A stretch of DNA of 41,364 bases from an uncultured Bacteroidales bacterium (GTDB lineage: Bacteria > Bacteroidota > Bacteroidia > Bacteroidales > UBA4417). Positions 8,049 to 37,306 of this stretch are shown in pieces. The translations under genes were made by a program, and so were the position numbers. The notes under the pieces were generated by a model that saw only the letters and a list, made by a program, of their open reading frames with translations, searched no databases and was not told the origin of the DNA. Position 1 is the first letter of the stretch. Each line of letters opens with the position of its first letter. The stretch is taken from the NCBI GenBank assembly GCA_903879715.1, contig CAIRMR010000163.1:1-41364 (forward strand), in the 5' to 3' direction.

Positions 8049-8097
8049 CTTTATTGGCAAACAGGAAATGTATAATACTAATAATTTATTTTAAATA

Positions 8098-9219: not shown

Positions 9220-9300
9220 ACTACAATTACTAAATTAGCACAAAATCACCAAGACAAATTTCCTTATTCTAAACTCTTTTTAAAGAATTGCCCCTGATTT

Positions 9301-14864: not shown

Positions 14865-15926
14865 ATGAAGATAGCAATACATAAAAGGGAAGATAGTTTT
14901 AGTTACGAATGGATTCAATATTGTGATAAACATGAGATTCCTTATAAACTTGTAGATTGTTATCAATCAGATATCATTGAAGATTTGGACGATTGCGATG
15001 CCTTAATGTGGCATTTTTCACAGGCAATTGCTAAAGACCTGGTTTTTGCAAAACAACTTTTATTTTCGCTGGAATCTGCCGGAAAAATTGTTTTTCCTGA
15101 TTTTCAGACGATGTGGCATTTTGATGACAAGATAGGACAAAAGTACTTACTTGAGGCAATTGGAGCTCCTCTTGTGCCTTCATATGTATTCTACTCGAAA
15201 AGTGATGCTCTGCAATGGATTGATGAAACAGTTTTTCCTAAAGTATTCAAACTTCGGGGAGGAGCCAGTTCGGAAAATGTAAAACTGGTCAGGAGCAAAA
15301 AAGATGCAAAAAAGTTAGTCAATCGGGCATTTGGCCTTGGTTTCAAACAATTTAATTCTTTCTTTTATTTGAAAGAATCTATCCGGAAATACAAATTAGG
15401 AGAATCTACTCTTTCCGATATAATAAAAAAAATAATCCGTTTATTCTATAAACTCGAATTGGACAAATTTTCCCAGAGAGAAAAAGGGTATGTTTATTTT
15501 CAGGACTTTATTGCAAATAATGATTCTGATATCAGGCTGGTAGTTGTCGACAACAAAGCGTTTGGAGAGAAACGATTTGTGCGGAAAAATGATTTCAGAG
15601 CTTCAGGAAGCCATATGCGGCAATATGATAAAGAAATTATTACTGAAGAAACGCTGAGGATTTCATTTGAAGTAGCAAAAAAGCTTAAACTTCAAACCGT
15701 AGCATTTGATTATGTTTATGAAAACGGAAATCCTTTGATTGTCGAAATTAGTTTTGGGACAACACCCGCTGCCTATAAACCATGCCCGGGATATTGGGAT
15801 AGTTCGTTGGATTTTCATGAAGGGGAATTTGATTTTTGCGCATGGATGGTGGAAGAACTTGTAGATAAAATCAATAAAAAGCAAACAGAAAATCTTGCTT
15901 CTGATAGTATTTCATCCAAGGTATAG
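14865..15926 (+). CDS. ATP-grasp superfamily ligase, RimK-like
   Basis: This 353-residue cytoplasmic protein follows the ATP-grasp plan. An N-terminal preATP domain (about 1-95) is followed by the nucleotide-binding region with FPKVFKLRGGASSENVKLVR (residues about 125-144), where the lysine should contact ATP. The catalytic core has GYVYFQDFIANNDSDIRLVV, then GEKRFVRKNDFRASGSH, and ends with VAFDYVYENGNPLIVEISFG, whose acidic residues should bind magnesium. Family members form amide bonds between a carboxylate and an amine by way of an acyl phosphate. In a glycan locus it may attach an amino acid to a sugar acid or make a modified building block; this is inference. It leads a compact group with the following four genes. 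Confidence 0.82.
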   Translation: MKIAIHKREDSFSYEWIQYCDKHEIPYKLVDCYQSDIIEDLDDCDALMWHFSQAIAKDLVFAKQLLFSLESAGKIVFPDFQTMWHFDDKIGQKYLLEAIGAPLVPSYVFYSKSDALQWIDETVFPKVFKLRGGASSENVKLVRSKKDAKKLVNRAFGLGFKQFNSFFYLKESIRKYKLGESTLSDIIKKIIRLFYKLELDKFSQREKGYVYFQDFIANNDSDIRLVVVDNKAFGEKRFVRKNDFRASGSHMRQYDKEIITEETLRISFEVAKKLKLQTVAFDYVYENGNPLIVEISFGTTPAAYKPCPGYWDSSLDFHEGEFDFCAWMVEELVDKINKKQTENLASDSISSKV

Positions 15927-20725: not shown

Positions 20726-20968
20726 ATGGAACTAAACGAAATCCTTAAACAAGTTAATAATATCTTTGTCGAGTTATTTGATGATAAGAGCATTGTGCTC
20801 AATGAGCAAAGCGACACATCAACTATTGAAGCCTGGGATTCATTAAATCATATTCAGGTTATTACTGCTGTTGAAAAGCGATTTAAAGTGCGTTTTGATC
20901 TGAATGACTTATTGAATTTTCAAAATATTGGAGATTTATGCAGAGGGGTTCAATCAAAGTTAGGCTAA
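20726..20968 (+). CDS. Acyl carrier protein 1
   Basis: This 80-residue, mostly acidic four-helix protein has the phosphopantetheine attachment motif WDSLNHIQVI, with S39 as the modified serine. The second half (EKRFKVRFDLNDLLNFQNIG) matches the helix III region of carrier proteins. It is not the housekeeping fatty-acid ACP (usual motif DSLDxVE). The TxxWDSLxH form is typical of carriers tied to specialised ligases such as DltC. It is followed after 86 bp by an MBOAT gene and an SGNH gene, and an AMP-forming ligase that could load it lies 5 kb downstream. It would carry an activated acyl or aminoacyl group as a thioester in the cytoplasm. Confidence 0.92.
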   Translation: MELNEILKQVNNIFVELFDDKSIVLNEQSDTSTIEAWDSLNHIQVITAVEKRFKVRFDLNDLLNFQNIGDLCRGVQSKLG

Positions 20969-21054
20969 TGTTGACTATTTACTCAAACTTAGCAAATAAA
21001 AAGCTTGGATAATATCACATTTGGAATTATCAGGAATACGAAATTTATAATCTA

Positions 21055-22482
21055 ATGATATCCTCATCAATTGTATACTTTATTTTTCTGATATGTACCT
21101 TCATAGTATATTACATATCGCCGGCAAAATACCGAAACTATGTATTGACCCTGGCTAGTTTGATATTTTACATGTACGTCAAAGTATCATACGTATTCTT
21201 AATTATTTCTATTATCACTGCAAATTATCTGATTGCAATTAAAATAGGTGAGGCTACAGAAAAGAAGCTGAAAACCCGATTTCTGTATCTGAGCTTTTTA
21301 ATTAATATTGGAATTCTGATTTATTTTAAATATTGGAATTTTATAATTGATAATATATTCAATATATCAGGAAACAACCCTGATAAAAGTAACTTCCTGA
21401 TAGTAGAAGTTATTCTTCCTCTTGGCCTTTCTTTTTATATTTTCCAAACGATTGGCTATGTTCTGGATGTTTATCGGGGCTCGCTGAAAGCTGAAAAAGA
21501 TTTTCTGAAATTCAGCCTTTTTACTTTATTCTTTCCAAAACTACTTGTTGGACCCATCGAGAGGGCCAAAAACCTGTTGCCTCAACTGGCGATTGAACAT
21601 AAATTTAATAAGGATAACCTAATAGAAGGAGTCAGGCTTATCGCTTGGGGGCTTTTTAAAAAGCTGGTAGTTGCCGATCGGATATCTATGTATGTTGATG
21701 CCGTGTATCTGCATCTGCCGCAACATAATAGTCTGACATTTTGGTTAGCAACATTTTTATATCCGATCCAGGTTTATGCTGATTTTTCAGGATATACTGA
21801 CATAGCAATAGGAACGGCTAAATTATTTGGCATTAATCTGATGGAAAATTTCAAGCAGCCACTTTTGGCCAGAAATGTTTCTGATTTTTGGCGTCGTTGG
21901 CATATTTCATTGTCTTCATGGGTTAATGATTACATTTTTAATCCTATTCTTTATAAGCGACGCGATTGGGGAAATGTAGGGGTTTTCTACGCTCTGATTA
22001 TCAGTTTTATAGTTATCGGAGTATGGCATGGAGCTTCATGGAATTTTGTAGTATTTGGTTTGCTGCAGGCATTTGCGCTTATTTATGATCTTGTAACAAA
22101 AAATAGCAGAAGAAAAATATCAAAAAAAATACCTGGGTTTATTTACAATAATTTGAGTATACTATTCACGTTTTTGTTTTTTACATTTTCATTGATAATT
22201 TTCAGAACAACAAGCATGGGACAAGCTTCAAGTATTCTGCATATTATAGAATCTAAGCCGGGTAAATTGTTTATTGATACTGAATCAACAATGTTATTTA
22301 TTTTTATTGGAATTGTAATACTGTTATTAAGGGATATTCAAGTCGAATATAAAATCATTAATATTAAAAATGCCGGGAACTATAACTGGCTACTTCAACA
22401 TATTTCGTATGCATTGCTATTGATATATATACTTGTTGCGGGAGTCTTCGACGGCGGACAGTTTATTTACTTTGCATTCTAA
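21055..22482 (+). CDS. MBOAT-family membrane O-acyltransferase 1 (DltB/AlgI-like)
   Basis: This 475-residue polytopic membrane protein has about 11-12 membrane segments. Diagnostic landmarks are PLGLSFYIFQTIGYVLDVYR, FFPKLLVGPIERAKNLLPQL, QVYADFSGYTDIAIGTAKLF, SDFWRRWHISLSSWVNDYIF (H283) and GVWHGASWNFVVFG, where H325 is the invariant MBOAT histidine. After RRWHISLSSW it reads NDYIFNPILYKRRD, without the IPLGG of AlgI, so it belongs with the second MBOAT here rather than the third. Family members take an acyl group from a cytoplasmic thioester donor and pass it across the membrane to a glycan or a partner protein. The gene lies between carrier protein 1 and an SGNH gene (13 bp gap), as in DltC-DltB-DltD sets. 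Confidence 0.93.
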   Translation: MISSSIVYFIFLICTFIVYYISPAKYRNYVLTLASLIFYMYVKVSYVFLIISIITANYLIAIKIGEATEKKLKTRFLYLSFLINIGILIYFKYWNFIIDNIFNISGNNPDKSNFLIVEVILPLGLSFYIFQTIGYVLDVYRGSLKAEKDFLKFSLFTLFFPKLLVGPIERAKNLLPQLAIEHKFNKDNLIEGVRLIAWGLFKKLVVADRISMYVDAVYLHLPQHNSLTFWLATFLYPIQVYADFSGYTDIAIGTAKLFGINLMENFKQPLLARNVSDFWRRWHISLSSWVNDYIFNPILYKRRDWGNVGVFYALIISFIVIGVWHGASWNFVVFGLLQAFALIYDLVTKNSRRKISKKIPGFIYNNLSILFTFLFFTFSLIIFRTTSMGQASSILHIIESKPGKLFIDTESTMLFIFIGIVILLLRDIQVEYKIINIKNAGNYNWLLQHISYALLLIYILVAGVFDGGQFIYFAF

Positions 22483-22495
22483 TTCAAAAAAATCT

Positions 22496-23461
22496 ATGAA
22501 AGCAGGCATTAAAGAAGAAATAAGAAAGAAGCTGTCCTTTAGTTTTCTATTTAAGGTATTCATATTCCTTTTAATTGTTTTTGTACTCGATTTTACAATA
22601 GGTAGTATCCTCAAGTATTATTATTTCAAGCAAACTTCCGGTTTCTATTACCGTACAACTTATTCAATTGAAGAGACAAAAGCTGACGTTCTGATTTTCG
22701 GTTCATCAAAAGCGAATCATCAGTTTTATCCTGATATTTTCGAAAAACGATTAAATTTATCATACTATAATGTTGGGCGTGATGGAAGCTCTATTTTTTA
22801 CCACTATTCAATTCTTCAATCTGTTTTACAACGATACACTCCGAAAGTGATTATTATTGAAATGACCAGGGAATTTGATAAAAAGCAAATTAGCTACGAC
22901 AGGATTTCAATGCTCTTGCCTTATTATGAAAGCCATCCGTCAATTCGTCCGATTATTGAAAAGAGAAGCCAATTTGAAAAGTTTAAGTTGATATCAAAAA
23001 TTTATCCCTATAACTCTTTGATCTTTTCAATTATATCAGGAAATTCCGAATTCAATAGAATAAGGAATTCTGATATTAAAGGATATGTCCCATTGACAAG
23101 AGAATGGAAAGACCCCATCCAACACTACTCAGTTCCATTTAAAGATCAAATAGACAGCACCAAAATTGAAGTATTTGAATCATTTATTAAAGCTTGTATT
23201 AATTCAGGAGTAAAACTATATATAGTAGCTTCTCCGAACTATTACGTCATGGATTATGTTGATAAGTCAAATCTTATTGCAAAAGAATTGGCTCAAAAAT
23301 ACAGGGTCAAATTCTTCGATTATTCTAATGACTCATTATTTCTAGCCAATCCTTCCTACTTTGCTGATAATATGCACTTAAACGATAAGGGTGCAATTGC
23401 TTTTTCGAACATTTTTATAGCAGAAATAATTAAGGATTTTTTACCTCAGGAAGAAAAATAA
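22496..23461 (+). CDS. Membrane-anchored SGNH-type acyltransferase partner 1 (DltD-like)
   Basis: This 321-residue protein has one N-terminal membrane helix (about residues 15-40) and a periplasmic SGNH domain. Block I is VLIFGSSKANHQ (G69-S70-S71), comparable to the GSS of DltD-like proteins. The C-terminal catalytic block is FADNMHLNDKG, with D291 and H294 as the DxxH pair. A longer TTG-initiated frame begins at 22433 but lies within the MBOAT gene, so I chose the ATG at 22496, 13 bp after the MBOAT stop. It probably receives an acyl group from MBOAT 1 and puts it on the polysaccharide. An esterase role that removes groups is the alternative. Coupling to the MBOAT gene makes transfer more likely. 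Confidence 0.85.
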   Translation: MKAGIKEEIRKKLSFSFLFKVFIFLLIVFVLDFTIGSILKYYYFKQTSGFYYRTTYSIEETKADVLIFGSSKANHQFYPDIFEKRLNLSYYNVGRDGSSIFYHYSILQSVLQRYTPKVIIIEMTREFDKKQISYDRISMLLPYYESHPSIRPIIEKRSQFEKFKLISKIYPYNSLIFSIISGNSEFNRIRNSDIKGYVPLTREWKDPIQHYSVPFKDQIDSTKIEVFESFIKACINSGVKLYIVASPNYYVMDYVDKSNLIAKELAQKYRVKFFDYSNDSLFLANPSYFADNMHLNDKGAIAFSNIFIAEIIKDFLPQEEK

Positions 23462-23590
23462 CTAAGGGGGAATAATCAACTTATTCTACGTTAGAATTCA
23501 TTCTAGGCAGATCCGAGGAAATTCTGATGCCAATTATAAAATAAGTTAACAATTCTAATTTTAGATTTTTGTCCTTTTAAACTCAAAATT

Positions 23591-24583
23591 ATGGAATATA
23601 TAAAAACGAAAGAATTTTCAAAAGATGTACTATTTATCGAAAACGTTGGTGCCGAAGTGGATAGGATCACACTAAAGTTAAGGGCAGATATGCAGAAAGT
23701 CCTTAAAAGAAGAGGTGCCGTTGTTGGAATTAGTGGCGGTATCGATTCTGCTGTTACCCTTGCACTGGCGGTTAAAGCTTATGGTGCTGATAAGGTTATT
23801 GGTTTATTGTTACCAGAAAGGGACTCAAGTAAAGACAGTAAAATATTGGCTTTAGAACTTGCCGAGAAGTTTGGAGTAAAAACTATTGAGGAAGATATAA
23901 CAGCCGCGCTTGATGGATTTGGGTGTTACAGAAGGAGAGATGAGGCTGTTACAGCTGTATTTCCTGAATATAATCCGATGGATTATAAAATGAAGATCGT
24001 TCTGAACCAGGGAGGGTCAGGGCATAATCTCCCTCCTTTATTTTTACTTACTATAATCGATAGTGCCGGGCAGAGTAAAAGTGAAATTATACCGATGAAA
24101 GAATTTCTGCAAATAATGGCATCAACGAATTTTAAGCAGAGATGCCGTATGGCAATGCTGTATTACCATGCCGAAAGACTTCATTACGCAGTTATTGGCA
24201 CTCCAAACAAACATGAGGTTGAGCAAGGCTTTTTCGTGAAATTCGGTGATGGTGGCTCTGATGTAATGCCAATTGCTCATTTATACAAAACACAGGTCTA
24301 CCAGATGGCAAGATATTTGGAGATTCCTGAAAAAATTATCAAGAGAACGCCAACTACTGATACATACAGCGCTGAACAAACCCAGGAGGAATTCTTTTAT
24401 CAGTTTCCTTTTGCCCAAATGGATTTACTCTGGTATGCTTACGAAAATGAAATTGATTTGGATGTTGCAGCTTCAGTAATGTCAATGTCAAATGATGAGA
24501 TTAAGAGCATCTTTAATAATTTTGCCCGTAAGCAACGTACTACAGAATATCAGCGTGCGAATCCTATATTTTATAAAGACTAG
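23591..24583 (+). CDS. NadE-like ATP-pyrophosphatase, probable amide-forming synthetase
   Basis: This 330-residue protein resembles NH3-dependent NAD synthetase. It has the PP-loop SGGIDS (48-53), NFKQRCRMAMLYYHAERLHY, the GTPNKHE substrate loop, and GFFVKFGDGGSDVMPIAHLY. Bacterial NadE has about 250-275 residues. This one is longer, with an extra segment around 110-170 (DGFGCYRRRDEAVTAVFPEY and NQGGSGHNLPPLF). It has no nitrilase-type glutaminase domain, so it needs free ammonia or a partner. Its location between an SGNH gene and an MBOAT gene argues against housekeeping NAD synthesis. It probably adenylates a carboxylate and forms an amide from it. A real but misplaced NadE is the alternative. 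The 129-bp gap upstream has no clear promoter. Confidence 0.8.
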   Translation: MEYIKTKEFSKDVLFIENVGAEVDRITLKLRADMQKVLKRRGAVVGISGGIDSAVTLALAVKAYGADKVIGLLLPERDSSKDSKILALELAEKFGVKTIEEDITAALDGFGCYRRRDEAVTAVFPEYNPMDYKMKIVLNQGGSGHNLPPLFLLTIIDSAGQSKSEIIPMKEFLQIMASTNFKQRCRMAMLYYHAERLHYAVIGTPNKHEVEQGFFVKFGDGGSDVMPIAHLYKTQVYQMARYLEIPEKIIKRTPTTDTYSAEQTQEEFFYQFPFAQMDLLWYAYENEIDLDVAASVMSMSNDEIKSIFNNFARKQRTTEYQRANPIFYKD

Positions 24584-24636
24584 GAATTTACAAATGGCTA
24601 TTTGGCTATTTCATCAATAAAGTTTATTTATTTCCA

Positions 24637-26079
24637 ATGTTATACTACCTGGCTATCTACCTCTGCTTTCTTGTTCTGGTATCTGGAATTTATTATTCAG
24701 TAAAAAAGGAATATAAATACCTGGTATTGTTTGCTGTAAGTTTGGGAGTAATAACGTATTTCTCATGGATAGTTGCTGTATATGCGATACTATTTTCCAC
24801 TTTTAATTACACATGGGGAATTCTGATTGAAAAGCATAAAAAAAATGACACACTGCGGCTTCGGTTGTTTTGGTCGGCAATTATACTGGATATAGGATTC
24901 CTCTCTTTTTTCAAGTATAATGGTTTACTTGATGATGGAATCAAGGGACTGGTCTCTTTATTTGCAGCCAGTTCGCAATTCTCACTTGGCTCCATCATTT
25001 TACCTTTAGGGATATCGTACTATACATTTCAAGCTTTGGGATATATAATAAGGATTAACAGGGGAAGCGAAAAAGCGGAACATGATTATTTAAAATTCGT
25101 TACTTACCTGATTTTCTTTCCCAAGTTTTTCTCAGGACCTGTTGAACGGTCGAACCGGTTTTTCCCGCAGATTCATAACCTGGGTAACTTTAACAAAGAT
25201 TCAGTTTCAGATGGATTGAGATTGCTGTTTTGGGGTGCTTTTAAAAAGTTTGCTCTAGCTTATGCTTTATATTTCCCTGTTCATCAGATTTATAGCAATA
25301 TTACAGCATACACAGGTGTTCAATTGATATTGGTTTTCTTTGTCCAGACTGTTTATATCTACATGGACTTCTCCGGATACACGGATATGGCCCTGGGTAC
25401 CGCAAAAATATTGGGAATTAATTTAACTAACAACTTTAATCGCCCGTTCCTTTCACGAAACATTTCTGAGTTTTGGCGAAGGTGGCATATTTCACTTTCA
25501 TCCTGGTGTACTGATTTTATTTATAATCCCTTTATTGTAAAATACAGGCGGTACGAGAATTTCGCAGTGGTTGCCGGAGTCTTCCTAACATTTTTCACCA
25601 TCGGAATATGGCATGCTGCAAACTGGACATTCATTGTACTTGGTTTATTGCAGGCAGTAGCAATTGTTTATGAATTTTACACTAAAAAAATACGATTGAA
25701 AATTGCTTCCGGCTATTCCAAAAGCCTGGTGAATACATTGAGTAGAATACTTGTCTTCATTTTCATGAGTTTTTCGATGGTATTCTTCTTTTCTCCAAGC
25801 ATTTCAGACGCGTGGTATCTGATCAGTCATCTTTTCAGTTTTACACAAACAGCTGAAGTGAGCCAGACGATAATATCTCAGAAAATACCATTCTTTTTAG
25901 CTTTAGGTTGTTTTGTATTAATATTTGTAGCAGAAATGTTGAATGAAAAAGGTAAGAATATTCCTGCCATATTTTTAAAACAACCAATCTGGATACAGGC
26001 ACTTAGTTATGGTGTATTGATTCTTGCTATTTATTTGTCAGACTCAACGTTTATTCCTTTTGAATATATGCGGTTTTAA
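24637..26079 (+). CDS. MBOAT-family membrane O-acyltransferase 2
   Basis: This 480-residue protein has multiple membrane segments and the standard MBOAT landmarks: PLGISYYTFQALGYIIRINR, FFPKFFSGPVERSNRFFPQI, YIYMDFSGYTDMALGTAKIL, SEFWRRWHISLSSWCTDFIY (H284) and TIGIWHAANWTFIVLG (H326). Like MBOAT 1 it has a YNPF sequence rather than IPLGG after the RRWHISLSSW block, so the two look like paralogs within this locus. There is no SGNH gene directly after it; the next gene is the AMP-forming ligase. It might work with one of the other SGNH proteins or acylate directly. The upstream junction has a short tandem TGGCTATT repeat (24596-24610). Confidence 0.92.
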   Translation: MLYYLAIYLCFLVLVSGIYYSVKKEYKYLVLFAVSLGVITYFSWIVAVYAILFSTFNYTWGILIEKHKKNDTLRLRLFWSAIILDIGFLSFFKYNGLLDDGIKGLVSLFAASSQFSLGSIILPLGISYYTFQALGYIIRINRGSEKAEHDYLKFVTYLIFFPKFFSGPVERSNRFFPQIHNLGNFNKDSVSDGLRLLFWGAFKKFALAYALYFPVHQIYSNITAYTGVQLILVFFVQTVYIYMDFSGYTDMALGTAKILGINLTNNFNRPFLSRNISEFWRRWHISLSSWCTDFIYNPFIVKYRRYENFAVVAGVFLTFFTIGIWHAANWTFIVLGLLQAVAIVYEFYTKKIRLKIASGYSKSLVNTLSRILVFIFMSFSMVFFFSPSISDAWYLISHLFSFTQTAEVSQTIISQKIPFFLALGCFVLIFVAEMLNEKGKNIPAIFLKQPIWIQALSYGVLILAIYLSDSTFIPFEYMRF

Positions 26080-26139
26080 TTCTCAATTTCAACTTTATTT
26101 TAAATTAATTGTTGATCAGTATTAATAAAATTTAATTCT

Positions 26140-27720
26140 ATGACATCAATTCCACAGCGATTACTGGGAGAAGCATTACTGATTTCGACGAAGCAAACCC
26201 CCTCAAAAACTGCTATTATCGTAAAAGGTAAGGAGTATACGTATTCTGAATTGAAGGAAAGTGCTGAAAGATTAGCCTTGTATTTAGTCAAATCTGGTAT
26301 TAAGAAAGGTGATCGGGTAGCAATTTCGATGGAAAATTCATGGCAAACTGTTGTCTCCATTTACGGAACAACCTTGTCCGGCGCTGTATTTTTAGTCATA
26401 AATCCTCAAACCAAAGCTGATAAATTACAATATATTTTAAATGATAGTGGCGCAAAAGTATTGATTTCTAATAGCATACTCAAACATGAGCTTTCTGCCG
26501 CGTTAAAAGATGTAAAAACCATTCAGGACGTTATAATTACGGGAGATGAAAAACAGATAATTGTTGCAGATTCAACATTCAGACTGTCCAATTTTGAAAG
26601 CATTATTTCAAGCGATATTGAGGTAAGATCTTTACCCAACATTATTCCTAACGATCTTGCAGCTTTAATTTACACTTCCGGAAGTACTGGTTTCCCTAAG
26701 GGCGTAATGATGACCCATCAGTCTATGGTTTTTACCACATGGAGCCTGATTGAGTATTTAAGATTATCAGAAGAAGATAGAATTATGTTACTTCTGCCTT
26801 TGGCTTTTGATTATGGATTGTACCAGTTGCTAATGGCAATTACAGTAGTAGGGACGCTTATTGTTGAACAATCATTCATTTTTACTGCTTCTATTTACCG
26901 GAATATTGAAAAGTATAAGCCAACAGTTTTCCCCGGAGTACCAACTATTTACGCTATGATGATAGCCTCATCAAAGGAAAATCCATTAGCATTCGATTGT
27001 ATTCAGAAAGTTACAAATACAGCGGCAGCTCTGCCGGCTGAGTTTATTCCTGATCTTAAAAAGATATTTCCTAACGCATTGATATTTAAGATGTATGGTT
27101 TAACAGAATGCAAAAGAGTCTGCTATCTTGAACCGGAATTGGTTGATCTGAAACCTACATCTGTTGGTAAAGCTATACCTGGTACCGAAGTTTTTCTTTT
27201 GGATGCTGAAGGTAATCCTGTACCAAACGGTGAATCTGGAATATTACATATTCGGGGCCCACATGTTATGTTAGGTTACTGGAATAAGGAAGATTTAAGC
27301 CGGGAAATGCTTAAGCAAGGTAACTTGCCCGGTGAAAGGATTTTGTGTTCGAATGACCTTTTTAAAATGGATGAAGATGGCTTTTTATATTTCCAGGGCA
27401 GGACTGATGATATCATTAAGACCAGGGGCGAAAAAGTTAGCCCGATAGAAATAGAAAATGTAATCTATAAAATTGATGGAGTTAAAGAAGTTGCTGTTAT
27501 AGGTATTCCTGATAAAATTATGGGTGAATCGATAGTAGCGCATATTACAACCCATGAACTTACTCAGTTGAACGAAAAAGATGTTCAGAAAGAATGCATG
27601 AGCAAGCTGGAGGTATTTATGGTTCCTCAAAAAGTTATTTTTCTAAATGAAATGCCTAAAAGTCCGAATGGAAAAATTGATAAAAAGGAACTAAAGAAAA
27701 TACTTCTGGAAAATGAATAA
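26140..27720 (+). CDS. AMP-forming acyl ligase (adenylation enzyme), DltA-like role
   Basis: This 526-residue ANL-superfamily enzyme has the core motifs in order: P-loop-like YTSGSTGFPKGVM (178-190), MYGLTECKRV (A5), FKMDEDGFLYFQGRTDD (A7), IIKTRGEKVSPIEIE (A8) and SPNGKIDKKEL with K512 as the catalytic A10 lysine. It activates a carboxylic acid as an adenylate and would load it onto a thiol. No CoA synthetase housekeeping context is present, and two carrier proteins flank the cassette, so I infer loading of ACP 1 or ACP 2. Its substrate pocket cannot be read with confidence. The stop codon overlaps the start of the next gene by 8 bp, indicating translational coupling to the methyltransferase. 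Confidence 0.9.
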   Translation: MTSIPQRLLGEALLISTKQTPSKTAIIVKGKEYTYSELKESAERLALYLVKSGIKKGDRVAISMENSWQTVVSIYGTTLSGAVFLVINPQTKADKLQYILNDSGAKVLISNSILKHELSAALKDVKTIQDVIITGDEKQIIVADSTFRLSNFESIISSDIEVRSLPNIIPNDLAALIYTSGSTGFPKGVMMTHQSMVFTTWSLIEYLRLSEEDRIMLLLPLAFDYGLYQLLMAITVVGTLIVEQSFIFTASIYRNIEKYKPTVFPGVPTIYAMMIASSKENPLAFDCIQKVTNTAAALPAEFIPDLKKIFPNALIFKMYGLTECKRVCYLEPELVDLKPTSVGKAIPGTEVFLLDAEGNPVPNGESGILHIRGPHVMLGYWNKEDLSREMLKQGNLPGERILCSNDLFKMDEDGFLYFQGRTDDIIKTRGEKVSPIEIENVIYKIDGVKEVAVIGIPDKIMGESIVAHITTHELTQLNEKDVQKECMSKLEVFMVPQKVIFLNEMPKSPNGKIDKKELKKILLENE

Positions 27721-28612
27721 AGAAGAACTATACAAAAGCCTTAAAACTATTCTGGAAGGAAAGTTAAGCTTGTTGAGCGATAAACCTGAAGAAACTATCG
27801 ATTCAACATTGAGGGCATTGTGGCATGCTGCTTCCGGTTTTCCTAAATCAGTTGAAGAAGCAGGTAAGTCTCAATTGCCGGAACTTGCACATGAACAGAT
27901 AGTTAATTTGAATAAATTGATCGAACAAAGACTTAATGATATACCCCTTGCACATATTACAGGTCGCCAGAGTTTTATGGGAATTGAATTATTGACTGAC
28001 AGAAGAGCTCTCATTCCCAGAAAAGAAACTGAAATACTTGGCAGGAAGGCTCTTGAGTTATCAAAGGATATTTCTGACCAAAAGAATCGGGTTCAAGTTA
28101 TAGACGTTTGTTGCGGCGCAGGAAATTTAGGCATAGCTATTGCTCATTTTAATATCAATGCTATTGTATCTGCTTCCGATTTATCACAGGAAGCAGTTGA
28201 TCTTACACATGACAATATTTCATATCTTAAGCTGGGTAAACGAATTCAGGCACTGCAGGGAGATTTGTTTTCAGCCTTTGAAACAGATGACTATTTTGGC
28301 AAAACAGATCTGATTATATGTAATCCTCCATATATTTCGAGTGCGAAGGTTCCAAAAATGATATCAGAGATATCTGAAAATGAACCTGTTTTAGCTTTCG
28401 ATGGTGGAATGTTAGGAACTAGAATAATTCTGAGACTAATAGGTGAAGCACCAAAATTTCTGACAAGTGGAGGATGGGTGGTTTTTGAAATCGGCCTTGG
28501 TCAGGGACCTTTTATTATGCAGTTATGTGAACGGTCAGCATTTTACAACAAAGTTGAATCTGTTTCGGACGATTCAGGAAACATCAGGGTAATTCAAGCA
28601 AGGAAGTTATAG
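27713..28612 (+). CDS. PrmC/HemK-like N-methyltransferase
   Basis: This 299-residue class I SAM-dependent methyltransferase closely follows the PrmC plan. It has an N-terminal helical domain (about 1-85), the linker PLAHITGRQSFMGIELLTDR and RALIPRKETEIL, motif I VIDVCCGAGN (129-138) and motif IV NPPYIS (N204-Y207). NPPY enzymes methylate planar amide or amino nitrogens; PrmC modifies the glutamine amide of release factors. It overlaps the acyl ligase gene by 8 bp and no release-factor gene (prfA) is nearby, so a dedicated role in the cassette is more likely than housekeeping. I infer that it N-methylates an amide made by the NadE-like or AsnB-like enzyme. Confidence 0.83.
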   Translation: MNKEELYKSLKTILEGKLSLLSDKPEETIDSTLRALWHAASGFPKSVEEAGKSQLPELAHEQIVNLNKLIEQRLNDIPLAHITGRQSFMGIELLTDRRALIPRKETEILGRKALELSKDISDQKNRVQVIDVCCGAGNLGIAIAHFNINAIVSASDLSQEAVDLTHDNISYLKLGKRIQALQGDLFSAFETDDYFGKTDLIICNPPYISSAKVPKMISEISENEPVLAFDGGMLGTRIILRLIGEAPKFLTSGGWVVFEIGLGQGPFIMQLCERSAFYNKVESVSDDSGNIRVIQARKL

Positions 28613-28653
28613 GGGATTTTTAGTTTTAAATAATTCCCAAAGTAGAAAATAAT

Positions 28654-30099
28654 ATGCTTTTTAATTCAGTAAATTTTGCAATATTTTTACCAATAGTCTT
28701 TATTCTATATTGGTTTGCCTCTAAAGGGAACCTAAGACTTCAAAATATTTTATTGCTTATTTCCAGTTACTTTTTTTATGCATGCTGGGATTGGCGTTTT
28801 TTGTTCTTACTCATTTTTTCCACTTTATTGGATTACTTTACAGGAATTAAAATAAGTCAGGCTTCAAATCAAAGTAAGAAACACATATGGCTTTGGCTTA
28901 GTATAATTGTAAACTTAGGTTTTCTAGGTGTTTTTAAATATTATAACTTCTTTGCTGAATCATTTGTGGATGGATTAGCTCAATTAGGATTAAAGGCTAA
29001 TTTTGGGACTATACAGGTAATATTACCCGTTGGTATTTCCTTTTATACTTTCCATGGTTTATCCTATGTTATTGACATCTATAAAAACAGAATAAAGCCG
29101 GAATTAGATTTTATTAATTATTCGGTTTTTGTAAGCTTTTTCCCTTTACTGGTAGCCGGGCCAATAGAAAGAGCAACACATCTTTTGCCTCAAATTCTTA
29201 AAAAAAGGACTTTTAATTATTCAAAAGCTGTTGATGGCTTACGCCAAATTTTATGGGGTTTATTTAAAAAGATTGTAATAGCCGACAATTGCGCAGAATT
29301 TGCGAATACAATTTTCAATAATTCTGATAACTATTCCGGCAGCACCCTGGTAATAGGTGCATTATTTTTTGCTTTTCAAATCTATTGCGATTTTTCGGGT
29401 TATTCTGATATTGCTTTAGGAACAGCCCGTTTATTTGGAATAGAGTTATTAAGAAACTTTGCTTTTCCATATTTTTCAAGAGATATAGCTGAATTTTGGA
29501 GGAGATGGCATATCTCTCTATCATCCTGGTTTAAGGATTATCTGTATATTCCATTAGGTGGAAGTAAAGGTGGAATGTGGATGAAAATCAGAAATACTTT
29601 TATAATATTTTTAGTAAGCGGATTTTGGCATGGAGCAAACTGGACTTTTATTGTCTGGGGTTTTCTTAATGCTCTTTATATCATGCCTTCAATAATTTTC
29701 AATACGAACCGAACTAATCTCGATATTGTTGCAAAGGGCAAATATCTCCCTTCTATAAAAGAGTTTTTGGCTATAAGTCTTACTTTTAGCTTGACACTTT
29801 TTGCCTGGATTTTTTTTCGTGCCAGGAGTGTAGATCATGCTTTTAGTTTTATCTCTGAGATATTTTCACGTTCCCTCTTTACAATTCCTGATTTTCCCGG
29901 GAATGGTAAAGTGTCAATTGCATTGTTGGTTTTATTATTTTTAATTGTTGAATGGCTTGGTAGAGAACAACAATATGCAATTTCGCATTTAGGAATCAAA
30001 TGGTATAAACCATTCAGGTGGGCAATGTATTACTCCATAATTGTTGCTATTTATTTTTTCAAAGGCTCAGAGCAGCAATTTATATACTTTCAATTTTAG
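28654..30099 (+). CDS. MBOAT-family membrane O-acyltransferase 3 (AlgI-like)
   Basis: This 481-residue polytopic protein is the most AlgI-like of the three. It begins MLFNSVNFAIFLPIVFILYW, the usual AlgI start, then has PVGISFYTFHGLSYVIDIYK, FFPLLVAGPIERATHLLPQI, CDFSGYSDIALGTARLFGIE, AEFWRRWHISLSSWFKDYLY followed by IPLGGSKGG (H286 in the RRWHIS block), and GFWHGANWTFIVWG (H326). The IPLGG and WHG elements are classic for alginate-type O-acetyltransferases. It probably moves an acyl group, often acetyl in this subfamily, across the membrane. It is paired with the SGNH gene starting 7 bp downstream, as AlgI is with AlgJ/AlgX. Confidence 0.94.
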   Translation: MLFNSVNFAIFLPIVFILYWFASKGNLRLQNILLLISSYFFYACWDWRFLFLLIFSTLLDYFTGIKISQASNQSKKHIWLWLSIIVNLGFLGVFKYYNFFAESFVDGLAQLGLKANFGTIQVILPVGISFYTFHGLSYVIDIYKNRIKPELDFINYSVFVSFFPLLVAGPIERATHLLPQILKKRTFNYSKAVDGLRQILWGLFKKIVIADNCAEFANTIFNNSDNYSGSTLVIGALFFAFQIYCDFSGYSDIALGTARLFGIELLRNFAFPYFSRDIAEFWRRWHISLSSWFKDYLYIPLGGSKGGMWMKIRNTFIIFLVSGFWHGANWTFIVWGFLNALYIMPSIIFNTNRTNLDIVAKGKYLPSIKEFLAISLTFSLTLFAWIFFRARSVDHAFSFISEIFSRSLFTIPDFPGNGKVSIALLVLLFLIVEWLGREQQYAISHLGIKWYKPFRWAMYYSIIVAIYFFKGSEQQFIYFQF

Positions 30100-30106
30100 C
30101 TTTAGT

Positions 30107-31045
30107 ATGCGAAAATTTATTAAATGGGTTTTAACTTTTTCATTACCATTAATAATTTGGATTATTTTGGTTGTATTGGTTGACCCGTATAACTACTTTT
30201 CATTTGGCCCCAAAATTATTGACAATCGATTAAAAATGGAAATATCTTACAAGCTAAACCGTCCATTATTCCAATTACTGGGATATAAAAGTCACCCAAC
30301 TCCTTCTATACTTCTTGGTGATTCAAGAACAGCTTGTTTGAAAAGTGAAATTATAAACAAATACACTAAAAATGATTTTACAAACCTCGCATACGCTGGT
30401 GGATCATTAGTTGATGCAATAAATACATTTTGGCTGGTTTCTGAAGATACTAAATTATCAGATGTTTATATTGGAATAAATTTTTCATTATTCAATAAAT
30501 ACAGAAGATTAGATATGGTTACAGAAGATGAAAAACTTATAGATAATTTTTTCCTTTATGCTATAAGTGAATCTGTTTTTAAATCCACATATTTAATACT
30601 AAAAAGTCTGATTACAGACAAAGACATCCAAATAGGAGTACCGGCTTCCTCTAAAGGGGAATTTTGGGTTTTTCAATTAGATACTACAGCAAATGAACAA
30701 TATGGATTATATGAATATCCGTCAAACTATTACAATGAATTAACCGAAATTTCTAAGTATTGTAAAAAAAATGGGATTAACCTTGTATTTTTCATACCTC
30801 CCACTCACACTGATTTGCAAAAAAAAGTTAAACAGTTTAATCTGCAGTACTTTGATGCAAAATTCAAAAATGATTTGGAAAAGATAGGAGATGTGTATGA
30901 TTTTGACTACCCATCAGATTTGACAAAAAATTATAACAATTTTTACGATCCCTATCATTTTACTGATTCTATTGGCGAAATTGTAGTTAAGGAATTATTT
31001 GCAAAAGAATCTTATAAGTATGTTAAATATAAGAAGGCACTTTGA
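30107..31045 (+). CDS. Membrane-anchored SGNH-type acyltransferase partner 2 (AlgJ/AlgX-like role)
   Basis: This 312-residue protein has one N-terminal membrane helix (about residues 5-25) and a periplasmic SGNH-like domain. The nucleophile block is ILLGDSRTACL (G71-D72-S73), and the C-terminal block is FYDPYHFTDSIG, with D281 and H284. A longer frame upstream (from 30041) overlaps the MBOAT gene, so I chose the ATG at 30107, which directly precedes the helix. With MBOAT 3 it forms an AlgI/AlgJ-like pair: MBOAT supplies the acyl group and the SGNH protein puts it on the polysaccharide. It is distinct in sequence from SGNH partner 1 (GDS instead of GSS). Confidence 0.83.
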   Translation: MRKFIKWVLTFSLPLIIWIILVVLVDPYNYFSFGPKIIDNRLKMEISYKLNRPLFQLLGYKSHPTPSILLGDSRTACLKSEIINKYTKNDFTNLAYAGGSLVDAINTFWLVSEDTKLSDVYIGINFSLFNKYRRLDMVTEDEKLIDNFFLYAISESVFKSTYLILKSLITDKDIQIGVPASSKGEFWVFQLDTTANEQYGLYEYPSNYYNELTEISKYCKKNGINLVFFIPPTHTDLQKKVKQFNLQYFDAKFKNDLEKIGDVYDFDYPSDLTKNYNNFYDPYHFTDSIGEIVVKELFAKESYKYVKYKKAL

Positions 31046-31160
31046 TTTTTATTGAATGGTTAAAAATCATGTCGGATAAATTAGACAATCCGGTTAATTA
31101 AGATATATTGTTACGTGAATTTTAACAGTTATCAGATAGGCGTAAAGCCAAGGCCTTAAA

Positions 31161-31595
31161 ATGTATCAAAAGACAATGAATCTATCAAAAGTTGAAATCC
31201 TCAAGCTTATTAATGTGTGGCTTGCGGCTTGGGATGAACATGATCTTGAGGGCGTTGTTTTATTAATGGATGAAAATATAGTGTTTGAAAACTGGACTGG
31301 TGCTACAATTATTGGTAAGAACAACCTGCAAAAAGCATGGGCTCCATGGTTCCGAAATCATGGCAATTTTAAGTTCACGAAAGAAGATATTTTTGTTGAT
31401 CAACAAGAACAAAAAGTTCTATTTAGCTGGTCTCTCCAGTGGCCCTCACCCGAAAAAGATTTTAAAGGAAAAACAGAGGTAAGGCGAGGGGTGGATGTGC
31501 TTCATTTTAAAAATGGTAAAATTTGCCGAAAATATAGCTATTCAAAAACTACGATTCAAATCGATTCATTTCAGGTAGCCTTGACAGCACAATAA
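31161..31595 (+). CDS. NTF2/SnoaL-like small protein
   Basis: This 144-residue protein has the cone-shaped alpha+beta pattern of the SnoaL/NTF2 superfamily. An N-terminal helical part (VEILKLINVWLAAWDEHDLE) leads into MDENIVFENWTGATIIGKNN, then AWFRNHG-like and beta-rich strands (KVLFSWSLQWPSP and RRGVDVLHFKNGKICRKYSY). Members include small enzymes and binding proteins that share a pocket but not one reaction. No catalytic pair can be named here. It has no signal peptide, so it should be cytoplasmic. Its place inside the acyl cassette suggests action on the acyl precursor. The start may be 31161 or the inner ATG at 31176; the domain is unaffected. Confidence 0.72.
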   Translation: MYQKTMNLSKVEILKLINVWLAAWDEHDLEGVVLLMDENIVFENWTGATIIGKNNLQKAWAPWFRNHGNFKFTKEDIFVDQQEQKVLFSWSLQWPSPEKDFKGKTEVRRGVDVLHFKNGKICRKYSYSKTTIQIDSFQVALTAQ

Positions 31596-31641
31596 ATTAG
31601 CAAATATGCTTTTTAAGATTTCTAAAATGTTAGTTACAAAT

Positions 31642-32496
31642 ATGAAACAATCAAAGTCATTTTACATTATTGTTTTTATAGCATTATTTTCGATAGTGGC
31701 GATTCAATGCAACTATAAGGCTCAAAATAAGGATGTATATAAAATTTTATTCCTTCATCATAGTACAGGAGATGCTATTTGGAAAGGAAATAGTAAATCA
31801 ATAGAAATCAAGGGCATTCATCTCGGTGCTGAGTACGATGTTCCTAAATGGTTCGCCAATAATAACAAAACAAAAGGAACATCCTATCAGATATCAGAAA
31901 AGTCTTTCCCAAACGAAGAACCATATGGTTGGCAAAATTATCCCTATGATTATTATAATATTTGGGTGAAAAACGCCGGAGATAAAGCATATATGGGTGA
32001 ATCTACACTGGAAATGCTTACTAAGGATTACAAGGTAATTATTTTTAAACATTGCTATCCGGTAAGCATTTTAAATTCGGATTCGACAAAAAGTGATATT
32101 AACTCAACTGAAAAAACTATCGAAAACTATAAACTGCAATACAATGCCTTGAAGCAAAAACTATTACAGTTTCCAGATACTAAATTTATTCTTTGGACAG
32201 GTGCAGTTATGGTTCAATCGCAATTAACAGAATCAAATGCTCAGTTGACCAGATCTTTCATTGATTGGGTTCGTAAAACCTGGGATACGGAAAATGATAA
32301 TATCTTTTTGTGGGATTTTTATGAATTAGAGACCGAAGGCGGACTGTATCTAAAACCGGAATATGCTACTTCGCCTACAAATTCGCATCCAAATAAAGAT
32401 TTTGCTCAAAAAGTAGCCCCTTATTTTTGCCAAAGAATAGTTGATGTTATTGAGAATGATGGTACAAAAACAACGCTTACAGGTATTTATAAATAG
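31642..32496 (+). CDS. Probable lipoprotein with SGNH-like features
   Basis: From the ATG at 31642 this is a 284-residue protein with a 22-residue signal peptide and lipobox-like FSIVAIQC ending in C23, predicting a lipid-anchored, probably periplasmic or outer-membrane protein. Earlier ATGs at 31606 and 31627 would lengthen the basic N-terminus and are less natural. The first conserved block is KILFLHHSTGDAIW, with S in an HHSTG element where SGNH enzymes carry the nucleophile. The C-terminal block TSPTNSHPNKDFAQ has a histidine that could complete a catalytic pair. The exact family is not one I can name. By context it may transfer or remove acyl groups on the polysaccharide, perhaps for MBOAT 2. 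Confidence 0.72.
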   Translation: MKQSKSFYIIVFIALFSIVAIQCNYKAQNKDVYKILFLHHSTGDAIWKGNSKSIEIKGIHLGAEYDVPKWFANNNKTKGTSYQISEKSFPNEEPYGWQNYPYDYYNIWVKNAGDKAYMGESTLEMLTKDYKVIIFKHCYPVSILNSDSTKSDINSTEKTIENYKLQYNALKQKLLQFPDTKFILWTGAVMVQSQLTESNAQLTRSFIDWVRKTWDTENDNIFLWDFYELETEGGLYLKPEYATSPTNSHPNKDFAQKVAPYFCQRIVDVIENDGTKTTLTGIYK

Positions 32497-32668
32497 ATTA
32501 ATAACTTGCCAAATAACTCTTCTCAATTGAATAAATATCGTCAGAAATTTGAATTTATTAATTTATCTTCTGACTGCTTTTTGTTCCCTTATGAGTTTCA
32601 ACAACATTATTTAATCAAGATCGTTAAAAGAAAATCATTTAAAGAATAATTATAAATATTTAGAATTC

Positions 32669-32920
32669 ATGGTAAATTTAGAACAAGTAAAAGATCAGAT
32701 CAGACAGTTTATTGTCGACACAACATTTGCTCCTGCAGAACAGGTTAAGAACGAAACGTTGATATTCGTCGAAGGGATTTTTGACTCAATGGGATTCGTT
32801 TCATTAATTAATTACATTGAAGAAACATTTGCAATAAAAGCTAAAGACTCGGAATTACTGGAAGATAATTTTGAATCAATTGATGCCATTGCGCGATTTA
32901 TTGAAAGCAAACTTAACTAG
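32669..32920 (+). CDS. Acyl carrier protein 2
   Basis: This 83-residue acidic carrier protein has the phosphopantetheine motif FDSMGFVSLI, with S40 as the attachment site, and a matching helix III region (EETFAIKAKDSELLEDNFES). It differs from carrier 1 (WDSLNH) and from a housekeeping fatty-acid ACP. It ends 9 bp before the AsnB-like gene, which points to co-translation and to a substrate shared between the two. It would hold an acid or amino-acid thioester for amidation or another change before transfer. A 172-bp AT-rich gap without a gene lies upstream. Confidence 0.9.
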   Translation: MVNLEQVKDQIRQFIVDTTFAPAEQVKNETLIFVEGIFDSMGFVSLINYIEETFAIKAKDSELLEDNFESIDAIARFIESKLN

Positions 32921-32929
32921 TCAGAATCC

Positions 32930-37297: not shown

Positions 37298-37306
37298 ATT
37301 ATATTT

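Follow-up and report, generated by a model that had tools for sequence, protein, structure and literature searches.

Gram-positive bacteria attach D-alanine to teichoic acid with the Dlt system, which combines an AMP-forming ligase, a carrier protein, an MBOAT protein and an SGNH protein; Bacteroidota, to our knowledge, have no teichoic acid. The dra locus of Bordetella is Dlt-like in its gene content. PMC4448142, citing Taneja 2013, describes the addition of D-alanine to a Gram-negative outer membrane by this locus, a precedent for D-alanine on a Gram-negative surface. In PatA/PatB and AlgI-type systems an SGNH protein lies adjacent to the MBOAT, and for the PatA/PatB type PMC12148441 describes an invariant histidine and a C-terminal acyl-shuttle tyrosine on the MBOAT, the Tyr at C-terminal position −4 of PatA having been shown to be acetylated. 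The window analysed here, a stretch of 41,364 nucleotides from an uncultured Bacteroidales bacterium, contains a run of thirteen genes on a single strand (20726-34906, intergenic gaps of −8 to 172 bp), for which we give an even chance to a carrier-fed MBOAT-SGNH relay serving the neighbouring polysaccharide, Dlt-like in its working and fed by an acyl-tailoring quartet.

The gene run and its likeness to Dlt

The run comprises the following genes.

20726..20968, + strand: ACP1, 80 aa, carrier of the MBOAT-side family; WDSLNHIQ, S39; PF00550 26.5 bits (cut-off 20.8)
21055..22482, + strand: MBOAT1, 475 aa, carrier-type segment; H325; C-terminal FIYFAF (Y472); PF03062 81.6 bits (cut-off 27)
22496..23461, + strand: SGNH1, 321 aa, partner of MBOAT1; S71/D291/H294; partial PF04914 match
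23591..24583, + strand: NadE-like amide synthetase, quartet member; NF002048 428.7 bits (cut-off 313)
24637..26079, + strand: MBOAT2, 480 aa, carrier-type segment; H326; C-terminal FEYMRF
26140..27720, + strand: AMP-forming ligase, 526 aa, quartet member; K512, FD224, TECKR; PF00501 301.9 bits (cut-off 29.9)
27713..28612, + strand: HemK/PrmC-like methyltransferase; TIGR00536 183 bits (cut-off 115.5); 8 bp overlap with the ligase stop
28654..30099, + strand: MBOAT3, 481 aa, generic type (PLGGSK, FIYFQF) and generic clade; H326
30107..31045, + strand: SGNH2, 312 aa, 3' of MBOAT3; GDS S73, D281, H284
31161..31595, + strand: small SnoaL-like protein, quartet accessory; PF12680 55.7 bits
31606..32496, + strand: U296, SGNH-fold lipoprotein; HHSTG S53, SHP H261; lipobox assigned by eye
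32669..32920, + strand: ACP2, 83 aa, quartet carrier; FDSMGFV, S40; PF00550 26.6 bits
32930..34906, + strand: AsnB-type glutamine amidotransferase, quartet member; TIGR01536 508.4 bits (cut-off 267)

The original prediction proposed a Dlt-like relay of carrier, ligase, MBOAT and SGNH protein within 20726-30099. The four protein types were found where it had placed them, each above its Pfam cut-off, SGNH1 with a match to part of the profile, and the active residues that it named were verified (ACP1 S39, ligase K512, MBOAT1 H325 and SGNH1 S71/D291/H294, the last numbered from the start ATG 22496 and becoming S69, D289 and H292 from a start two codons downstream). This interval holds three MBOAT genes (starts 21055, 24637 and 28654) with the NadE-like (23591-24583) and HemK/PrmC-like (27713-28612) genes interspersed among them, and past 30099 the run goes on to 34906 with SGNH2, the SnoaL-like protein, the SGNH-fold lipoprotein, a second ACP and the AsnB-like amidotransferase, the SGNH-type proteins of the run being three (SGNH1, SGNH2 and U296).

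Beyond the shared protein types, the likeness to Dlt lies in the D-S-M-x-x-V motif of ACP2 with its serine; in DltC, the Met and Val of the corresponding motif touch DltB, according to PMC11035591. No protein of the window reached a Dlt equivalog cut-off. The ligase scored 187.6 bits against DltA (TIGR01734, cut-off 559.85), MBOAT1, 2 and 3 scored 171.5, 183.7 and 151.6 bits, respectively, against DltB (TIGR04091, cut-off 375), and ACP2 scored 22.5 bits against DltC (TIGR01688, cut-off 52.35), a model to which ACP1 gave no match at E ≤ 0.001. There was no room for DltX between an MBOAT and the next SGNH gene (gaps of 13 bp, at SGNH1 start 22496, and 7 bp), and the acyl-shuttle tyrosine, which in Dlt is on DltX, is on the MBOATs of the run. 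The run also differs in having two carrier families, three MBOATs and extra AsnB-type, NadE-like and methyltransferase genes, the first two of which have no Dlt counterpart.

The ligase, its constant partners and the two carrier families

The ligase, ACP2, the AsnB-type amidotransferase and the NadE-like amide synthetase form a quartet, all members of which were present in 34 of 38 ligase loci, each with at least 4.5 kb of flank on both sides, a threshold that leaves out 22 of the 60 ligase loci for short flanks. One locus, L059, is without a ligase call in the co-occurrence table, although its ligase is among the listed matches. Homologue searches scored the first few candidates per genome, the match numbers being lower bounds, and many of the compared loci are kin, so that counts are not independent. 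The HemK-like methyltransferase joined the quartet in 22 of the 38 loci and the SnoaL-like gene was present in 8. The quartet loci L043 and L057 come from Geofilum species, culturable relatives, and their stretches gave no MBOAT call. When the search was started from NadE instead, the ligase (one weak, 192 bits), AsnB and an ACP were each recovered in 10 of 11 additional genomes. The expectation that the four Dlt-like families co-occur held for the ligase and a carrier, which were together nearly always, and failed for the ligase and an MBOAT, which were neighbours in a minority (8/38). The MBOAT was absent within 10 kb (or to the end of the stretch) from 30 of the 38 loci and polysaccharide markers, by a conservative marker set, were found at 17, so the quartet product may often serve something else. 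These MBOAT-free loci favour an alternative that we regard as possible but unlikely, in which two systems adjoin: the quartet would make a cytoplasmic amidated small molecule or an amino-sugar N-acyl group, and the three MBOATs and the SGNH proteins would acetylate from acetyl-CoA like PatA/PatB. The same alternative draws on a hexapeptide acyltransferase cluster, present in 12 of 61 quartet loci (L063, with 27% identity and no quartet, left out; the window itself uncounted and the near-identical L016 counted), and on the PatA-type C-terminal tyrosine of all three MBOATs.

The best NCBIfam match of the ligase was TIGR03098, the ligase of exosortase A (XrtA) loci, at 450.7 bits (cut-off 592.35), and TIGR03108 of the same set was the second best match of the AsnB-type protein, at 418.5 bits (cut-off 816.9); both scores are far under the cut-offs. 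XrtA loci carry a PLP decarboxylase, in whose place the run has the NadE-like enzyme, and what the XrtA set does is, as far as we know, likewise unproven. That the ligase is an acyl-CoA ligase of catabolism or lipid synthesis, with the carriers loaded otherwise, is very improbable: many NCBIfam acyl-CoA ligase models do match it (PRK06187 with 392 bits, cut-off 476), but the top model is TIGR03098 and an ACP lay within 10 kb of the ligase in all 38 flanked loci. The ligase pocket, with positions D224 and R326 that we take to correspond to the PheA code, was tried as a substrate readout and gave no acid. In an alignment of 65 rows, D224 was found in 47 and R326 in 61, and the replacement of D224 by Cys in 13 relatives means that there is no single substrate code.

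The catalytic motifs of the amide-forming enzymes were conserved, namely Cys2 and SGGxDS in the AsnB-type protein (46 rows) and the PP-loop SGGxDS of the NadE-like protein, with S48, G49, G50, D52 and S53 each conserved at 95% or more (51 rows). A better-scoring second NadE was found on contig C27 of the same genome and another PrmC, above the TIGR03534 cut-off, on contig C88, which leaves the copies of the run free for a dedicated role. The C27 copy and the constant position within the quartet speak for a substrate of the NadE-like enzyme different from that of housekeeping NAD synthesis. We rejected the view that the NadE-like and HemK-like genes are housekeeping genes that happen to lie here, given these other genomic copies and the recurrence of both genes at quartet loci.

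By sequence score, ACP1 is a member of the MBOAT-side carrier family and ACP2 of the quartet family. Of 28 MBOAT-side carriers, counting duplicates and the window's own, 25 scored better against ACP1 than against ACP2; of 49 carriers on the quartet side, again counting duplicates, 48 scored better against ACP2. Other ACP1-type carriers adjoin different loaders, either DltA-like or FkbH, and three loci with MBOAT1 (L020, L026 and L033) had no ACP1 call. Contig C77 of the same genome has consecutive genes for a DltA-like ligase (296.5 bits against a cut-off of 560), a GNAT and an ACP1-like carrier, and this ligase could be the loader of ACP1; in genome G110, a DltA-like ligase, GNAT, ACP1, MBOAT1 and SGNH1 follow one another, and among the matches listed for MBOAT1 from other genomes, the MBOAT there ranked first. 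Both rows favour strict Dlt-like aminoacylation, in which the C77 ligase, or that of the window, would load ACP1 with an amino acid for transfer by MBOAT1-SGNH1 to the glycan, the quartet being separate. We hold this to be improbable: a carrier is already present on C77, none of the four MBOATs detected in the genome lies there, and in five other loci, of which three have no ACP1, MBOAT1 remains next to NadE and the ligase. An FkbH search of the genome gave no match, but its search controls were likewise without any match. A paper on aeruginosins (PMC10143770) reportedly has both FkbH and an MBOAT, in a cyanobacterial peptide context. Among the titles listed in a search of open-access journal literature, none concerned quartet or FkbH-ACP-MBOAT sets.

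MBOAT types and SGNH partners

All three MBOATs scored above the PF03062 cut-off and carry the WH histidine (H325, H326 and H326). At the site of carrier docking in DltB, MBOAT1 and MBOAT2 have a distinct segment that lacks the PLGG of the generic type, and solved DltB is likewise without GG there. The segment comes after SLSSW and is 37 residues long in MBOAT1, against 35 residues for a generic one. Among held-out MBOATs, an ACP lay within 4 kb of 4 of 7 with the carrier-type segment versus 1 of 50 generic ones, in 60 regions picked from, and not all of, the matches listed for the MBOAT1 search, with three MBOATs unclassified, three of other lengths and the class pattern slightly loosened before scoring. 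In 40 regions picked regardless of ACP, the counts were 4/4 and 1/30. A table of 54 MBOATs gave 11/12 and 2/33, but it is biased by regions chosen in part for a visible carrier or ligase, so reliance is placed on the two former counts. Exceptions to the rule were L190 and L136, the latter being carrier-type without an ACP by the first pattern and unclassified by the second.

In the tree, MBOAT1 falls in a clade of 6 rows, all from quartet loci (support 100/100), and MBOAT2 in a clade of 8 rows (support 100/100), 7 from quartet loci and the eighth (L092/L098) truncated where its contig begins, a ligase and NadE being visible there. The clade holding both had a carrier gene in 16 of 17 stretches, the seventeenth being cut by the contig start. 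The set of MBOAT1, SGNH1, NadE and ligase recurs at five other loci across several orders with the succession MBOAT1-SGNH1-NadE kept, and MBOAT1 identity is 95% in L016 and 52-57% in the remaining four. From segment type near carrier genes and from clade, MBOAT1 and MBOAT2 look carrier-fed, and MBOAT3 is generic and probably CoA-fed. The quartet-linked clades, the synteny across orders and the differing docking segment tell against the view that the quartet and the MBOATs are two adjoining systems.

The proposed Dlt-like relay was thus borne out in part, by the carrier-fed look of MBOAT1 and MBOAT2 and the recurrence of MBOAT1 and SGNH1 with NadE and the ligase, and departed from in that the constant carrier of the ligase is ACP2, not ACP1, that AsnB and NadE are foreign to Dlt and that MBOAT3 is generic. 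A closed Dlt set of MBOAT, SGNH protein, ligase and ACP1 was ruled out, the constant partners of the ligase being ACP2, AsnB and NadE.

A Tyr is at C-terminal position −4 in all three MBOATs, and Y472 did not vary across 11 aligned rows, among them the three window MBOATs. Like PatA/PatB and AlgI-type systems, the run combines the invariant His, the C-terminal tyrosine and adjacent SGNH genes, SGNH1 coming after MBOAT1 and SGNH2 after MBOAT3, and MBOAT3-SGNH2 fits PatA/PatB at the sequence level. Unlike that system, MBOAT1 and MBOAT2 lack the generic PLGG segment and are located with carriers, and MBOAT2 ends in FEYMRF instead of FIYFQF. The predicted model of MBOAT1 (moderate confidence, pLDDT 69.6, C-terminus below 50) did not place the tyrosine. 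DltB was its best Foldseek match and the sole match of a profile of MBOAT1-3 and relatives against solved proteins; this nearness is no guide to carrier-fed versus generic, because the profile contained MBOAT3, which itself scores on the DltB model.

SGNH1 is the partner of MBOAT1, directly after which it is found at five other loci; its match to DltD (PF04914, 25.3 bits, cut-off 22.7) is partial, the best stretch spanning no more than positions 20-84 of a 348-position profile. Neither SGNH2 nor U296 matched a Pfam family above cut-off, DltD included. The predicted fold of U296 is SGNH (AF2 pLDDT 84.4), with Foldseek matches to GDSL/SGNH esterases (E 1.5e-4) and to PatB 7tjb (E 3.9e-3). MBOAT2 has no SGNH gene directly adjacent in the window. 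U296-type genes adjoin MBOAT2-type genes in L021, L096 and L097 and are absent from L024 and from the stretch at L025, and SGNH2 relatives come after MBOAT2-type genes in L096, L097 and L098. U296 is a candidate partner of MBOAT2, and any pairing of SGNH2 and U296 with MBOAT2 and MBOAT3 is putative.

Proposed pathway and its meaning

We know of no description of an MBOAT-SGNH pathway with an amidotransferase-built acyl group. From the observed gene set, conservation, carrier families, MBOAT types and residues, we infer the chemical steps, the acid, the acceptor and the hand-off from ACP2 to the MBOATs. In the preferred carrier-fed relay, the ligase would adenylate an acid and load it on the phosphopantetheine arm of ACP2; the AsnB-type enzyme, with ammonia from glutamine, and the NadE-like enzyme would turn a carboxylate into an amide on the acid or a precursor, and the HemK-like enzyme may add a methyl group to the nitrogen of that amide. 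Either ACP2 itself, or ACP1 once the acyl group has been handed on to it, would then dock on MBOAT1 and MBOAT2, which would pass the acyl group across the membrane to their own C-terminal tyrosine, and SGNH1, together with U296 or SGNH2, would accept it on the serine and transfer it to the glycan. MBOAT3 would probably use an ordinary acyl group (acetyl) from CoA. A more specific version, which we put forward tentatively and think rather unlikely, is a two-carrier relay in which the acid, loaded on ACP2 and amidated (perhaps N-methylated) while carrier-bound, goes to ACP1 and then through two dedicated MBOATs and their SGNH proteins to an exopolysaccharide. It would belong to a wider Bacteroidota set in which MBOATs are fed by carriers and the loaders can be exchanged (quartet, DltA-like, FkbH).

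If true, carrier-protein-fed acyl transfer would be no Gram-positive speciality, Bacteroidota applying it to polysaccharides with several loaders. A short MBOAT segment would separate carrier-fed from CoA-fed members, and donor choice in MBOAT-SGNH systems would become directly testable. A role would also be given to the quartet, which is present in several phyla and whose genes would be named NAD synthase, asparagine synthase and acyl-CoA ligase by family models.

Gene content of the window

The genome that holds the window (6.07 Mb, 99.6% complete) contributes it as one entire contig (G000:C163), and the nearest named record found was a Bacteroidales MAG (locus L016), with a ligase identity of 96%. 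Polysaccharide genes, including glycosyltransferases, a PGA_cap protein and a Wzy_C match slightly below the cut-off, occupy the window up to approximately 20.4 kb. They precede 13 genes on a single strand (20726-34906, gaps of -8 to 172 bp), in the order ACP1, MBOAT1, SGNH1, NadE-like, MBOAT2, ligase, HemK-like methyltransferase, MBOAT3, SGNH2, SnoaL-like, U296, ACP2 and AsnB-like. The active residues named in the original prediction for the carrier, ligase, MBOAT and SGNH proteins were confirmed in the window sequences. No Pfam family exceeded the cut-off for the pair of proteins encoded at 35141-38434 (718 and 375 aa); a relative of the first adjoins a U296 relative in L019. Other features of the window were:

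7041-10449, Polysacc_synt_2, Polysacc_synt_C and Epimerase_2 families within the polysaccharide genes, a set which we take to be for UDP-N-acetylfucosamine synthesis
14865-15926, RimK-like ATP-grasp protein amid the polysaccharide genes (59.9 bits on TIGR00768, cut-off 143)
38530-41364 (minus strand), cadherin-repeat protein carrying a Por secretion tail and left open by the end of the contig

Conservation of the quartet

The AMP-forming ligase, ACP2, the AsnB-type amidotransferase and the NadE-like amide synthetase, hereafter the quartet, were followed from the ligase, with 47 of 48 loci used (L063, 27% identical, was dropped). Searched across the order (295 genomes), the ligase had matches at E ≤ 1e-80 in 15, one of which is the genome of the window; the other 14 were all used. 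Of 60 loci with a ligase call, 38 have flanks of 4.5 kb or more on each side of the ligase, and co-occurrence was counted in these, up to 10 kb away from the ligase or to where the stretch ends. NadE-like genes were found in 36, AsnB in 35 and both together with an ACP in 34, followed by the HemK-like methyltransferase (22/38), U296 (12/38), SnoaL (8/38) and SGNH1 (5/38); the HemK-like call was made in 0/14 loci from the order-wide search. The co-occurrence proposed for the ACP, ligase, MBOAT and SGNH families held for ligase with ACP (38/38) but for ligase with MBOAT only in a minority (8/38), and the lack of a nearby MBOAT in most quartet loci counts against an MBOAT relay fed by the quartet.

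A second, more distant ligase subfamily had the quartet in 9/9 loci with flanks. In the reverse search, which covered 296 genomes of the phylum, 12 had the NadE-like family, own included, and the ligase, AsnB and ACP were each found in 10 of the 11 others; L164, from this search, has a weak ligase and a split AsnB. Distant loci (ligase identity 43-56%), in records labelled Pseudomonadales, Desulfobacterales, Anaerolineae, Verrucomicrobiia and others, hold the quartet whole or in part. A literature search, judged by the titles listed and outside subscription journals and preprints, found none for the quartet. Since a polysaccharide marker, from a conservative set, occurred in only 17/38 ligase loci, the quartet product may have uses beyond polysaccharide.

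Matches to NF002048, the family of the quartet NadE, also occur in the tractable archaeon Methanosarcina acetivorans, a control genome of the reverse search, and two quartet-type carriers stand in tandem in L106 (5484-6031). The ligase of L057 (Geofilum rubicundum) and AsnB in L021 and L164 are in two pieces, which may be assembly errors.

MBOAT classes, carriers and loaders

In a tree of 83 MBOATs, MBOAT1 grouped with MBOAT1 genes of five quartet loci (support 100/100), and MBOAT2 with genes of four quartet loci and of L096, L097 and L098 (100/100). These three were labelled controls, yet their MBOATs lie beside ligase and NadE, with the whole quartet in L096 and L097 and L098 cut by the contig start. 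Both clades and the ACP-linked rows L065, L066 and L158 form one clade of 17 (100/99); MBOAT3 was placed in the generic clade. MBOAT1-SGNH1 immediately precedes NadE in 5/5 other loci having the pair, with MBOAT1 identities of 95% (L016) and 52-57% (L020, L024, L026 and L033, labelled Sphingobacterium, Sphingobacteriales, Chitinophagales and Bacteroidetes).

The stretch that separates RRWHISLSSW from the catalytic WHG is 37 residues long and free of GG in 22/83 rows, including MBOAT1 and MBOAT2. The GG motif, typically PLGG[SN][RK] with 35 residues, occurs in 42/83, MBOAT3 among them, and the remaining rows have a segment of other length or unread. Solved DltB likewise lacks GG here, and its carrier-docking helix falls in this segment, according to PMC11035591. 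The link between segment and carrier was set down as a prediction and scored on 60 further MBOAT regions picked among the matches listed, where an ACP lay within 4 kb of 4/7 carrier-type versus 1/50 generic MBOATs (Fisher p = 4e-4). The three carrier-type misses were L201 (ACP at 4.2 kb), L227 (truncated where its contig stops) and L190 (none). In 40 earlier regions, chosen regardless of carriers, the values were 4/4 and 1/30, with L136 one more miss under the first class pattern. Among 42 control MBOATs (L122-L161), an ACP within 2.5 kb was found for 3, a ligase within 6 kb for 2 and NadE for 0. The segment without GG thus looks to mark carrier-fed MBOATs, with the donor side of MBOAT1 and MBOAT2 as in DltB.

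Comparison of 97 carrier sequences of the loci (a count that takes in duplicates and those of the window) with ACP1 (20726-20968) and ACP2 (32669-32920) separated two kinds, both present in the window, L016 and L024. Where NadE and AsnB both lay no more than 6.5 kb away, ACP2 scored higher in 48/49 carriers, the exception being an L171 carrier adjoining an FkbH gene and MBOAT. Of 28 carriers that had an MBOAT nearby without having both NadE and AsnB, 25 scored higher with ACP1; the other 3 favoured ACP2 and include quartet carriers of L016 and L074, whose NadE lies too far away to be counted. The 20 carriers close to neither divided 16 to 4. ACP2 has the motif DSMGFV, with M41 in 42/56 aligned carriers of module loci; the DltC residues past the serine that contact DltB are, according to PMC11035591, Met36, Val39 and Glu40.

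Loaders near MBOAT-linked carriers vary, being FkbH, DltA-like adenylating enzymes (L094, L103 and L158) or the quartet; none was identified beside the carriers of L101 and L102. FkbH, ACP and MBOAT genes lie near one another in L112, L128, L132, L171 (MBOAT not typed), L178 and L203. Given the chemistry of FkbH, these sets suggest that glyceryl- or lactyl-type acyl groups are moved by carrier-fed MBOATs in Bacteroidota. The L103 MBOAT (G217) has an in-frame stop, possibly an assembly error. Three sets are of note:

L094:6036-11316 (G110), DltA-like ligase, GNAT, ACP1, MBOAT1 and SGNH1 in a row by gene calls, the nearest to a complete Dlt-like set among the loci examined
L171:7350-17884 (G475), quartet beside an FkbH-ACP-MBOAT set, a second kind of carrier-linked MBOAT next to the quartet
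L235:8834-11232 (G000:C77), DltA-like ligase (498 aa), GNAT protein (PF13673, 27.1 bits) and ACP1-like carrier in a row without MBOAT, in the window's own genome

The G000:C77 set could be the loader of ACP1, which counts against feeding by the quartet, as do the other loaders of ACP1-type carriers elsewhere; MBOAT1 without a called ACP1 in L020, L026 and L033 also counts against the relay.

Proposed chemistry and relation to Dlt

SGNH1 follows MBOAT1 and SGNH2 follows MBOAT3; no SGNH gene adjoins MBOAT2 in the window. MBOAT2 relatives adjoin relatives of U296 (L021, L096, L097) and of SGNH2 (L096, L097, L098), and neither in L024, so the partner may be of U296 or SGNH2 type. U296 had no Pfam match, and its AlphaFold model (pLDDT 84.4) gave SGNH/GDSL carbohydrate esterases as top matches (best E 1.5e-4), with PatB and OatA ranked lower and query TM-scores of approximately 0.4; by this model, U296 has an SGNH fold, loosely superposed. 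Relatives of 532 aa with C-terminal extensions were also seen:

L036:16119-17714 and L046:15093-16688, U296 relatives

The L036 extension comprises Big_2 and Por_Secre_tail domains, so export by type IX secretion is probable.

The AsnB-type enzyme retains Cys2 and SGGxDS, the NadE-like protein SGGxDS, and the HemK-like methyltransferase NPPY (PPY in at least 95%). Compared with the best solved NadE, the NadE-like protein has approximately 60 more residues in the part that separates its two matched blocks. Because AsnB and NadE families form amides, and PrmC/HemK enzymes methylate the amide nitrogen of glutamine, the AsnB-type and NadE-like enzymes would by analogy form an amide on a putative substrate, and the HemK-like enzyme may methylate the amide. 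All three window MBOATs keep a tyrosine close to the C-terminus, at position -4 (Y472 in MBOAT1). According to PMC12148441, the corresponding PatA tyrosine is acetylated and hands the group to the SGNH partner, and the Dlt acyl-shuttle tyrosine is located on DltX. As the tyrosine is on the MBOAT, as in PatA, the membrane step would be PatA-like in layout, with a DltB-like, carrier-fed donor side in MBOAT1 and MBOAT2.

The original prediction of a Dlt-like relay acting on polysaccharide survives in part. DltB is the nearest solved relative, yet the likeness is not specific, as generic MBOAT3 also matches the DltB model, and the moderate quality of the predicted MBOAT1 model also counts against the relay. 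MBOAT1 and MBOAT2 likely work as Dlt does. The system is not Dlt itself by sequence, because the proteins of the run reached no defining Dlt model except for a partial DltD match. It is best read as a variant of carrier-fed MBOAT-SGNH acyl transfer with the quartet as putative feeder.
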